Part shown: piece by piece, positions 13,044-32,716 of the stretch | Layout of the letters: each line of letters begins with the position of its first letter | Position numbering within the stretch: the stretch's first letter is position 1 | Assembly (NCBI RefSeq): GCF_007096885.1 | Contig: NZ_VJNO01000015.1 | Coordinates: forward strand, 1-64,000 | Direction: 5' to 3' | DNA from: Streptomyces sp. 130 | GTDB lineage: Bacteria > Actinomycetota > Actinomycetes > Streptomycetales > Streptomycetaceae | Length of the DNA stretch: 64,000 nucleotides | Made by a program: the position numbers and the translations under genes | The notes under the pieces: generated by a model | Databases searched by the model: none | What the model saw: the letters and a program-made list of their open reading frames with translations, nothing else | Told to the model about the DNA's origin: nothing

Positions 13044-13307
13044 TCAGACGGCCGCCTTCTTCAGGCGTCGGCGCTCGCGCTCGGAGAGGCCGCCCCAGAT
13101 GCCGAACCGCTCGTCCTTAGAGAGGGCGTACTCCAGGCACTCGGACCGGACTTCACAGGCGAGGCAGACTTTCTTCGCCTCTCGGGTCGATCCACCCTTC
13201 TCGGGGAAGAAGGACTCGGGATCGGTCTGGGCGCACAGCGCGCGCTCTTGCCAGCCGAGCTCTTCGTCCGCGTCCTCGACCAGCAGTTGCTGGAACAGCT
13301 CGGTCAT
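13044..13307 (-). CDS. whiB: WhiB transcription factor, 87 aa
   Basis: An iron-sulfur transcription factor of the Wbl family (PF02467). Four cysteines (25, 48, 51 and 57, spaced C-x22-C-x2-C-x5-C) bind a [4Fe-4S] cluster, followed by the GIWGG turn at 69-73 and a basic C-terminal tail RERRRLKKAAV for DNA contact. The length and the sequence MTELFQQLLVEDADEELG match WhiB itself, which acts with WhiA to switch aerial hyphae to sporulation septation. The start is the ATG at 13307 with GAGGGG upstream. A strong promoter and a leader hairpin lie upstream. Assignment to WhiB rather than another Wbl protein rests on recall of sequence and gene neighbourhood. Confidence 0.88.
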   Translation of the reverse strand: MTELFQQLLVEDADEELGWQERALCAQTDPESFFPEKGGSTREAKKVCLACEVRSECLEYALSKDERFGIWGGLSERERRRLKKAAV

Positions 13308-13407: not shown

Positions 13408-13723
13408 GCCCGGATCTGCTATTGGCCTCGGTATTCACCCTGCGGCACCAACCGTATGCGTTAAGTGTTCAAATCACCAAAAACCTGACATATGCCATGG
13501 GCCCTACCGCGTACCCGCCTGCCATGGAGACAAACTGTCGCGGACTCGGACACGTTGCGATTCGATCACCGAAGCGACCAAGATCACATTCGGGTCACGG
13601 TGCCGTGCCCATGTTTGGCAGCACGACTGCTGCGCCACCTGTCCCCACCACGGCCCGCTAAAACCTTTCTCCGATCGGAGTAACCGGATGAGGTGAAACA
13701 TTGCCGCCAAACCGGGCATTGGG

Positions 13724-13752
13724 TTGACACCGGGCGACCCTCCGGTTCTCCT
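13724..13752 (+). promoter_or_regulatory. candidate promoter for the Cys-rich leader peptide
   Basis: A perfect TTGACA at 13724-13729 is followed 17 bp later by a weak -10 (TCTCCT, 13747-13752). A start about 7 nt downstream would fall at the ATG at 13760, making the leader peptide mRNA leaderless. The -10 is poor, so this is tentative. Confidence 0.45.
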
Positions 13753-13759
13753 TGATGGC

Positions 13760-13855
13760 ATGCCAGCGACCTCAGCGACGCACGCGACCCGCGCCCGTGG
13801 GTTCCGCAGCGCTGTCCAGGCTCGCTGTCGCTGTTCCAGCTGTCTCAGCTGTTGA
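13760..13855 (+). CDS. Cys-rich leader peptide, 31 aa, upstream of cysteine dioxygenase
   Basis: A short reading frame from the ATG at 13760 encodes MPATSATHATRARGFRSAV followed by QARCRCSSCLSC and a TGA at 13853. Five of the last nine residues are cysteine, including the final codon. It lies 172 bp upstream of a cysteine dioxygenase-like gene on the same strand. There is no Shine-Dalgarno, but a TTGACA hexamer at the right distance suggests leaderless initiation. Leaderless polycysteine-coding short frames that act as cysteine-responsive attenuators are known in mycobacteria. By analogy this frame probably senses Cys-tRNA supply; the role here is inference. It is too short for standard gene finders. 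Confidence 0.7.
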   Translation: MPATSATHATRARGFRSAVQARCRCSSCLSC

Positions 13856-13882
13856 TGCCGCCGACGCCGTCGTAGCCCTCCC

Positions 13883-13928
13883 GCTCCGGCCCGGCACCGC
13901 CCGTCCCGCCCCGCCCCGCACCCGGAGC
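13883..13928 (+). promoter_or_regulatory. possible leader hairpin between Cys peptide and cysteine dioxygenase gene
   Basis: GCTCCGG (13883-13889) can pair with CCGGAGC (13922-13928) in the 172-nt spacer after the leader peptide. The 32-nt loop is C-rich. It is a weak structure but in the right place for an attenuation switch. No U-tract follows. Confidence 0.3.
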
Positions 13929-14027
13929 CCATGGCCCTTCCGGCCTCCGTTCCCGGTCCACCGGGCCTCGCGACGGACCCACCGCACGCCGCACCCGCAC
14001 TCGCACCCCGCCGAGGAACCACGCTCC

Positions 14028-14561
14028 ATGAACAGCAGCGACAGCGACCTCCAGATCGCCGGCGACCTCCTGGAGGTCCAGCACCTTCTCCGCCCCGCCC
14101 CCGAACACCCCGCCACCGTCGCGGAGTTCGTCGGCCTCGCCCGTACGATCGCGGCCGACCGCGACCGGTGGGCGCCGCTCGTCCGGTACGACGCCACCAC
14201 CCGCTGGTACCACCGGCTGCGCAAAGTCCCCCGAGGTCTCGGCTCCGCCCGACCGGGGGAGACCCCGCTCGGCTACGAGGTCTGGCTGCTGAGCTGGGTG
14301 CCCGGGCAGGGCAGCGGGCCGCACGACCACGGGCCGTCCTCCGGCGTCCTGACCGTCCTCGACGGCGAACTGACCGAACGTACGGAACGGGGGAAGCGGA
14401 CGCTGGGCGCGGGCGCGCAGCGCGTCTTCGCCCCCGGCTACCGCCACGAGGTCGTCAACGACTCCCTGGAACCGGCCGTCAGCCTGCACATCTACTACCC
14501 GGGACTCACCGACATGCCGATGCACGCGGCGCGGTGCGCCCAGGCGGTAGCAACGGCCTGA
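14028..14561 (+). CDS. cysteine dioxygenase-family cupin, 177 aa
   Basis: A small cupin of the cysteine dioxygenase type I family (PF05995), which oxidises cysteine to cysteine sulfinate with non-haem iron and O2. The iron-binding triad is visible: His99 and His101 in GSGPHDHGPSSGVLTVLDGE, and His140 in 'FAPGYRHEVVNDS'. The reading frame is open upstream to 13752, but that part is Arg/Pro/Ser-rich and overlaps the Cys-rich leader in another frame. I therefore start at the ATG at 14028 (MNSSDSDLQIAGDLLEV). The gene lies 60 bp before cofD. Thiol substrates other than cysteine (for example mercaptopropionate) cannot be excluded. Confidence 0.82.
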   Translation: MNSSDSDLQIAGDLLEVQHLLRPAPEHPATVAEFVGLARTIAADRDRWAPLVRYDATTRWYHRLRKVPRGLGSARPGETPLGYEVWLLSWVPGQGSGPHDHGPSSGVLTVLDGELTERTERGKRTLGAGAQRVFAPGYRHEVVNDSLEPAVSLHIYYPGLTDMPMHAARCAQAVATA

Positions 14562-32258: not shown

Positions 32259-32716
32259 CGCACTCCCCTCAGCCGCTGCGCGCGTATCGCGCGAGAGCGA
32301 TGGCCGATGCCGGTCATCGTGCCACGGTCAGCCCTCCCCGGGGCCCCGGGGAGGAGTACAGGACGAGCACGGGAGCGGGCCCGCGGCCGGAGGGGCGGAC
32401 CGCCTTCGCGGAACCGATGCAGCGCCACCGGGTCGCGGGAAACCACGACGCGGTGCGCCAGGACACGGAGCCCCGCGACCCGGTGCGCCACGACGCCAAA
32501 CGCTTTGAAAGAACCCGGGAAAGAACCCAACCCCACCCCACCCGAACCCGGTACGAACGCTGATCACTCGCGCGGGTGACAAATGGCAACTGAGCTGGAT
32601 TTGGGGCCGGTTGTCGGGCATATGCTCGCGGCACCAACCACAGACACGAGTCGGCCCCGACCGGGACAGCGAATCCCGGACGGGGCCTGACCACCGAGGA
32701 AGAAGAGACCTTCCCG
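32259..32716. other. 458-bp intergenic region with short direct repeats
   Basis: The region lies between divergent genes. It contains a perfect 10-bp direct repeat GAAAGAACCC (32507-32516 and 32519-32528) and a pair of CGGTGCGCCA motifs (32451-32460 and about 32481-32490). A TATGCT near 32620-32627 could be a -10 for the downstream HTH gene, but no -35 is clear. No gene is seen. Confidence 0.45.

Follow-up and report, generated by a model that had tools for sequence, protein, structure and literature searches.

A genus-wide Cys-codon leader ahead of cysteine dioxygenase in Streptomyces, most likely an attenuator whose Cys codons are complementary to the start of its target

The window, a stretch of 64,000 nucleotides from Streptomyces sp. 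130, carries a cysteine dioxygenase type I gene (CDO) that is preceded by a short Cys-rich reading frame. The features of the locus are given below, with position 1 being the first letter of the window.

13044 to 13307 (-): divergent neighbour that anchors the locus, an open reading frame that is probably whiB-like by family likeness
13724 to 13729 (+): -35 element TTGACA, 30 nt ahead of the leader ATG
13747 to 13752 (+): -10-like hexamer TCTCCT, weak, with no A at position 2
13760 to 13855 (+): leader ORF of 31 codons and TGA, with the predicted transcription start at its ATG
13856 to 14027 (+): spacer from the leader stop to CDO, C-rich and G-poor, a candidate Rho loading region
14013 to 14018 (+): Shine-Dalgarno-like GAGGAA of CDO, seen in the sequence and similar in many of the loci compared
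14028 to 14561 (+): CDO gene, matching PF05995 (Pfam CDO_I) at 5.2e-15

The PF05995 score of the window CDO is 55.8 bits against a cut-off of 23, and the top chains of a PDB search are named cysteine dioxygenase (lowest E 3.2e-6). The protein has His99, His101 and His140, which would be the three Fe-binding ligands of this family. An earlier reading made from the letters alone (the sequence-only reading) had placed a CDO-like gene with these histidines 172 nt past the leader stop, and its ATG at 14028 is indeed found there. As an alternative enzyme, 3-mercaptopropionate dioxygenase, which would rescue the sign of control proposed in that reading (expression favoured when Cys-tRNA is charged), was rejected, the best PDB matches being named cysteine dioxygenase, a comparison at the level of names. 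The gene that follows CDO is presumably cofD-like. In S. coelicolor, whiB is SCO3034 (PMC4255298), and SCO3035, judged by its place beside whiB, would be the orthologue of the window CDO.

Translation of 13760-13855 gives the peptide MPATSATHATRARGFRSAVQARCRCSSCLSC followed by a stop, in agreement with the 31-codon frame first proposed; the five Cys codons once counted among the last nine come down to four (residues 23, 25, 28 and 31), all of them TGT. The promoter suggested along with this frame stands in part, in that TTGACA is separated by a 17-nt spacer from the hexamer at 13747-13752, while position 2 of TCTCCT is not the usual A and a sigma-70 scan found no promoter-like site at the leader promoter. 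The first T of the hexamer is kept in 91% of the 83 loci with a gap of 30 and in 72% of the 29 loci with a gap of 31, and the last T in 100% of both; across loci, then, most have T at -13 and all have T at -8, while A is as a rule absent from the second position. With so weak a -10, the putative leader promoter draws its support from conservation, the consensus match being poor. Much of the region from -60 to -1 is conserved across loci, and just 5' of the -35, at 13700-13723 of the window, lies a CGGNCAT block that is conserved genus-wide and may bind a regulator.

Both strands of the window contain a single frame of this make-up (ATG or GTG start, 18-45 codons, at least four Cys in the last 14 residues, and a -35 with at least 5/6 matches at 29-31 nt), namely the leader, and 20 Markov-shuffled 64-kb strands contain none. 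Two other Cys-rich frames of the window were rejected as similar leaders, both being without the -35: frame 2660, antisense to a long ORF, and frame 35615, the end of a 146-codon ORF. The leader matched no Pfam family, nor any NCBIfam profile when matches up to E 10 were allowed, NF042934 (cut-off 27 bits) included, and no Rfam match in the leader region passed gathering, the single match (isrG, 13 bits vs 100) being at chance level. Elsewhere in the window, at 32476-32716 (+), Rfam RF02673 scr4677 (Streptomyces sRNA 4677) matches with 104.6 bits. A leader profile searched against the genome returned the leader itself at 6.4e-14 and the next best match at 0.05, making it the sole one of its kind; the weak matches elsewhere in the genome (best 0.05) were not accepted as relatives.

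To follow the leader across genomes, 128 CDO loci were oriented, and a frame with at least three Cys in the last 14 residues and a -35 of at least 4/6 matches at 29-32 nt from its ATG was found in 113 of them. Thirteen of the 128 loci are paralogues or other families, one of which (L083) has a leader, so that in 112 of 115 Streptomyces orthologue loci, window included, a short frame rich in Cys lies ahead of CDO at 29-31 nt from TTGACA. Weaker orthologues are under-represented in this count, the 115 being the window's nearest relatives together with the highest-ranked of the genus genomes that gave a match (290 of 295), and related loci are not independent events. The Cys run proposed in the sequence-only reading is therefore kept across the genus. 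All 113 loci with a leader have an exact TTGACA 29-31 nt ahead of the leader ATG, while the distance to CDO varies from 74 to 218 nt. Nine loci were left unoriented, seven of them outgroup loci without a tblastn match and two (L001 and L002) set aside. The three misses comprise a locus with dissimilar upstream DNA and no whiB found (L007), one masked with N (L075), and one Streptomyces locus (L074) that keeps the promoter TTGACA, has no Cys leader and has lost AACAGC from its CDO start, which may be a case of natural loss of the leader. A second draw, consisting of the best 80 of 125 relatives among named genomes with strains partly shared with the first, gave a leader in 79 of 80 (76 with TTGACA and three with TTGACT), the one remaining locus being truncated by a contig end.

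Beyond Streptomyces, a frame whose last 14 residues include two or more Cys (2-7) occurs in 24 of 28 loci from sister genera within the family, and a -35 of at least 5/6 matches lies at 30-31 nt in 23 of the 24; the four remaining loci are L159 (contig end), L168 and L169 (CDO not located) and L176. These peptides differ widely, with Cys near the end and the promoter spacing being kept. In 29 aligned leaders, M1, G14, A18 and C25 are invariant. Taken at genus level, Streptomyces CDO has a real Cys-codon leader, most likely an attenuator.

Conservation extends to the level of nucleotides. Leader Cys codons are 446 TGT against 127 TGC, whereas in 31 long GC3-rich ORFs of the window the counts are 5 TGT and 103 TGC, and conserved leader residues show little synonymous change, their synonymous sites being nearly as frozen as the peptide. 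In CDO (54 full CDSs), codons 2-6 have a mean synonymous entropy of 0.09 and codons 8-12 of 0, whereas the average over 111 codons further on is 0.77, with 11 of these being invariant as well. A constraint at the RNA level seems to act on both the leader and the CDO start. These two regions are complementary to each other through the following segments.

13818 to 13835 (+): segment B, the Cys-codon run, antisense to the CDO start
14034 to 14050 (+): segment D, CDO codons 3-8 in the window, the partner of B

When the span from stop+8 to CDO+45 is searched for the top complement of the Cys run, 97 of 111 loci have it starting at a distance of 0-9 nt from the CDO start (the 111 being the 113 without L083, which belongs to another family, and L072, which has a divergent leader), and in the second draw the best complement falls at the CDO start in 69 of 74. 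The duplex between the Cys run and the CDO start has a median of -23.7 kcal/mol over the 111 loci, with 2.2% of dinucleotide shuffles reaching the observed energy. When leader and CDO start are folded freely, the predicted P(B:D) has a median of 0.92 over 110 loci and is 0.76 in the window; on 55 loci (every second one) it averages 0.85 for native sequences vs 0.24 with the Cys tail shuffled. The folds, masks, swap and register tests all cover 110 of the 111 loci, leaving out L031, which has no ATGAAC start. In a fixed register B:D scores 2405 vs at most 1838 in fourteen slid controls; with the register set without reference to D, the same 2405 compares with 2406.6 (sd 4.4) after D is shuffled among species, so the arms of B:D appear conserved, with covariation beyond shuffles absent in the fixed register. 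A swap test favours the native pairs in 92 of 110 loci, which is weaker evidence because the registers were fitted. Where CDO codon 5 changes from AGC to AAC, a U stands opposite the changed base in 6 of 7 species in the fitted duplexes, which is not seen in the fixed register. As a rule, B:D was not found in 25 loci outside this set (23 from sister genera and two divergent Streptomyces, with starts picked by Shine-Dalgarno score and L154 left out), although a few, L145 and L174 among them, show part of it.

A second long-range pairing, for which the evidence is weaker, and a hairpin within the leader involve these segments.

13762 to 13772 (+): segment A0, the 5' end of the leader
14053 to 14063 (+): segment E, CDO codons 9-12, the partner of A0, with a synonymous entropy of about 0
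13773 to 13814 (+): hairpin inside the leader, with outer stem 13773-13777:13810-13814 and inner stem 13786-13792:13797-13803

Of eight A0:E positions, seven are paired in 94 or more of 99 loci, and the mean predicted pairing probability is 0.52 vs 0.18 in shuffled sequences (50 loci, again every second one). Support within Streptomyces is moderate, E being the best complement of the leader 5' end in 46 of 110 loci; outside the genus A0:E was not found as a rule, with A0 best at E in 3 of the 25 loci. An alignment-wide alifold, tried as a route to B:D, found the A0:E pairs and did not find B:D. The leader hairpin was tested on 44 of 104 distinct leader segments, hand-picked for diversity: 90.2% of cells are paired vs at most 43.8% when the register is slid, and 36 cells are changed on both sides vs 11.4 in shuffles (0 of 500), while neither pairs changed on both sides (60 of 500) nor additional pair types (347 of 500) exceed the shuffles. 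There is thus some apparent covariation support for this hairpin; the automatic consensus fold of the leader is a different, weak fold. At 13600-14100 no intrinsic-terminator-like site was found, which separates the locus from a classical trp-type attenuator. The 13883-13928 hairpin, once put forward as a possible coupling device, showed no sign of such a role, a long-range helix at the start codon being predicted instead.

The effect of a stalled ribosome was modelled by masking 30 nt of the leader. A mask at the first Cys raises the predicted accessibility of the CDO start in 94 of 110 loci, and by more than 0.1 in 78, whereas control masks on the early leader and on the spacer produce a rise of more than 0.1 in 8 and 1 loci of 110, respectively. 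Mean start accessibility over the 110 loci is 0.34 unmasked, 0.51 with the first-Cys mask, 0.47 with the last-Cys mask and 0.42 with a mask at the stop codon; the contrast in the model is modest, since some opening of the start (from 0.34 to 0.42) is already predicted for a ribosome halted at the leader stop codon. The window's own sequence departs from the majority, in that the first-Cys mask lowers accessibility from 0.42 to 0.30 and the last-Cys mask brings it only to 0.47, because a second stretch of Cys codons can replace B. In the 25 other loci, where pairing between Cys run and start is rare, mean accessibility hardly changes under the first-Cys mask (0.47 to 0.49).

Cys leaders are found at further places in the genome. 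The second CDO (G000:C112, L001/L195; PF05995 at 6.1e-46) is preceded by the Cys leader MTDTDVRLWRRVHMDLLRYAGCVCRPSC, with TTGACC at 30 nt, and this leader, unlike the one in the window, matches NF042934 ("putative leader peptide") at 1.9e-9; a rhodanese-like frame lies downstream of the gene. In the genome, six matches to NF042934 exceed the cut-off, a seventh falls short of it (23 bits) and an eighth has E 0.9. The first seven are followed by ThiS-like and cysM-like genes, the second CDO, a solute-binding protein, a nitrite/sulfite reductase, a rhodanese, a flavin reductase and a symporter of the sodium:dicarboxylate family, the labels cysM-like and, for the rhodanese, thiosulfate sulfurtransferase-like being our own reading. 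The symporter, preceded by the leader MKTDVRLRSATSVPLVERLHVDLCRCMSAVCCRNV (L200, G000:C71), is perhaps a cystine importer, and the flavin reductase gene, preceded by the possible leader MPSDPLLHGRAYIDLARTAGACCPGA (L199, G000:C11), follows a thioredoxin-like frame. Of further CDO-like loci that are not orthologues, 5 of 13 have a Cys leader by a loose test. Two CDO-like paralogues in another genus (L170 and L173, g35) have leaders ending in CRLHVDLRRQASDMCAC with TTGACG at 30-31 nt; one of these leaders was scanned and scored below the NF042934 cut-off.

Published expression data bear on several of these genes. In S. coelicolor treated with H2O2, SCO3035, listed as "hypothetical", rises 6.5-fold and SCO5772 8.0-fold (PMC4991794), the latter having been called a putative cysteine dioxygenase (PMC3087709). 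SCO3035 rises alongside cysNDCHI, cysM and cysA in a table of 28 up-regulated genes that also holds ssu, SCO4164-4165, SCO2910-2912, SCO4498, metNIQ and others, and the experiment measured mRNA rather than translation (PMC4991794). Four targets of Cys leaders match this table by function, namely the sulfite reductase, the cysM-like gene, the thiosulfate sulfurtransferase-like gene and the second CDO, while the solute-binding protein and the flavin reductase are without a match; the symporter may be SCO4498 ("proton transport protein").

We consider it fairly probable that the leader is a leaderless Cys-codon ORF acting in cis as an attenuator of CDO translation, with CDO being ON at low Cys-tRNA. 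Transcription would begin at the leader ATG, and ribosomes would load there directly. With Cys-tRNA charged, the ribosome would reach the leader stop and leave, and the freed B would pair with D and hide the start; with Cys-tRNA short, it would stall on the TGT codons and cover B, and CDO would be translated. The C-rich spacer may add Rho-dependent polarity. Comparison of sequences shows a conserved leader with its promoter spacing and Cys codons, the complementarity and a nucleotide constraint on both arms; from these we infer that the leader is probably leaderless, that ribosomes stall on it, that B:D acts as a switch in cells, and which way the control runs. The published H2O2 table agrees with CDO being ON at low Cys-tRNA. 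Cys leader and promoter spacing are common to the family, while the direct start lock may be a feature of Streptomyces, with another coupling, perhaps Rho, operating elsewhere.

The predicted sign is opposite to that of the sequence-only reading, which had expected faster translation through the Cys codons to favour expression. A ribosome stalled on a Cys run that is complementary to the CDO start would be expected to free that start, and SCO3035 is up under H2O2, so that we depart from the earlier expectation. A weak point of the predicted sign is that a Cys-degrading enzyme switched on at low Cys brings no obvious benefit. The earlier sign could be obtained through Rho, if fast translation at high Cys favoured CDO and an early stall exposed the C-rich spacer to Rho-dependent termination. 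Such a scheme suits the metabolic logic of a catabolic gene, and it is compatible with a spacer that averages 48% C and 23% G (C exceeding G in all 113 loci, with lengths of 74-218) and has no intrinsic-terminator-like site. The spacer would, however, be untranslated with or without a stall, the complementarity predicts that a stall opens the start, and the S. coelicolor gene rises together with Cys biosynthesis (PMC4991794). In Streptomyces SCUT-3 two CDO genes are up 50- and 8-fold in feather medium vs LB (PMC7181669), which might be taken for induction by high Cys, but because LB is a rich medium the comparison fits either sign and cannot tell high from low Cys. We regard control through Rho with the earlier sign as unlikely.

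It is also improbable that the leader serves as an RNA arm only, the GCTGT repeats being kept for pairing with CDO and the Cys codons being a by-product without any sensing. GCTGT does occur in the leader in a frame other than that of the Cys codons (GCT GTC), the synonymous sites are nearly frozen and B:D is strong in free folds, yet 24 leaders of the sister genera, where B:D is mostly missing, still have 2-7 Cys among their last 14 residues. A further scheme would reconcile the B:D anatomy with catabolic logic, namely an arrest peptide on which free Cys holds the ribosome and unmasks the CDO start, giving induction by substrate. The model for it is TnaC of the E. coli tryptophanase operon, likewise a leader peptide ahead of an amino-acid-degrading gene, where high tryptophan causes arrest and blocks Rho. 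Nothing at the CDO leader, in contrast, shows arrest by free Cys. The invariance of M1, G14, A18 and C25 could be read as that of an arrest sequence, but G14, A18 and C25 fall in the leader hairpin or in B, where with synonymous sites nearly frozen an RNA constraint can explain them; the sister-genus peptide is quite different, and SCO3035 is up under H2O2, which is expected to lower free Cys, leaving this scheme with little likelihood. Control purely at the level of transcription, exerted at the conserved promoter region by SenR, for instance, with a leader of no consequence, would account for the conservation from -60 to -1 and for an hbpS-senS-senR mutant in which, in the reported data, no gene passed as up-regulated by H2O2 (PMC4991794), but it is very hard to credit given the conserved Cys codons, the complementarity between leader and CDO, and the presence of a Cys leader of a different kind on the other CDO.

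Returning to attenuation with CDO ON at low Cys-tRNA, a wider proposal can be made, which we put forward tentatively and hold to be somewhat short of probable: both Streptomyces CDO genes would belong to a Cys-shortage regulon and be switched on by stalls on different Cys leaders, the Cys codons of the present leader doubling as an antisense lock, and the H2O2 regulon of HbpS-SenS-SenR would largely be a read-out of Cys leaders. The authors of the H2O2 study ascribe the response to HbpS-SenS-SenR (PMC4991794), and Cys depletion as sensed by Cys leaders offers an alternative reading of it.

A likeness to the polycysteine frames of mycobacteria had been suggested from the sequence and is supported here, the conserved Cys-codon leader seeming to control CDO in cis; both systems share a leaderless short ORF (leaderlessness being predicted in our case) that ends in Cys codons before a gene of Cys metabolism. 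The mycobacterial leaders, studied by Canestrari et al. 2020, reportedly act as attenuators in which a stalled ribosome prevents the hiding of a downstream ribosome-binding site. The window leader differs in having another peptide and a target that degrades Cys, and its Cys codons form the antisense arm of the target's first codons, an arrangement that to our knowledge is not found in the mycobacterial case. Ribosome profiling has described a mycobacterial Cys-codon leader (PMC4633059), and Cys leaders have been predicted ahead of mycobacterial cys operons (PMC1262725). The latter share with the present leader runs of Cys codons near the stop and the lack of a terminator hairpin, whereas in the accessible text of that paper there is no Streptomyces or CDO case and no conserved hairpin, a start-codon helix being predicted here (PMC1262725). 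The attenuator family NF042934 (cis_reg_atten) likewise comprises short Cys-containing leaders before sulfur genes, including the second CDO of this genome, and differs in that the window leader has no match to its profile at E up to 10. Attenuators of S. lividans are leader peptides too, several of them leaderless, among them metL before metNIQ with three Cys; the eight leaders of Table 4 include none before CDO and none called Cys-dependent (PMC8079986). The metL peptide, MSTTSDRTPATEATTTPGARCMCRRMCAF, described as a "methionine" leader, has its three Cys in the last nine residues (PMC8079986), and may sense Cys rather than Met. Among open-licence papers we saw no description of a Cys leader ahead of CDO.

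Cys-codon attenuators have been described for Cys-making genes of mycobacteria, whereas the probable one presented here occurs genus-wide on a gene whose product destroys Cys. It matches none of the profiles searched, its sensor codons would at the same time be the antisense lock of the target, and its predicted sign is paradoxical. This raises the question of why CDO should be made when Cys is short, with the supply of sulfite and the turnover of thiols under oxidative stress being possible reasons. The CDO leader also gives a published oxidative-stress regulon a possible explanation based on leaders.
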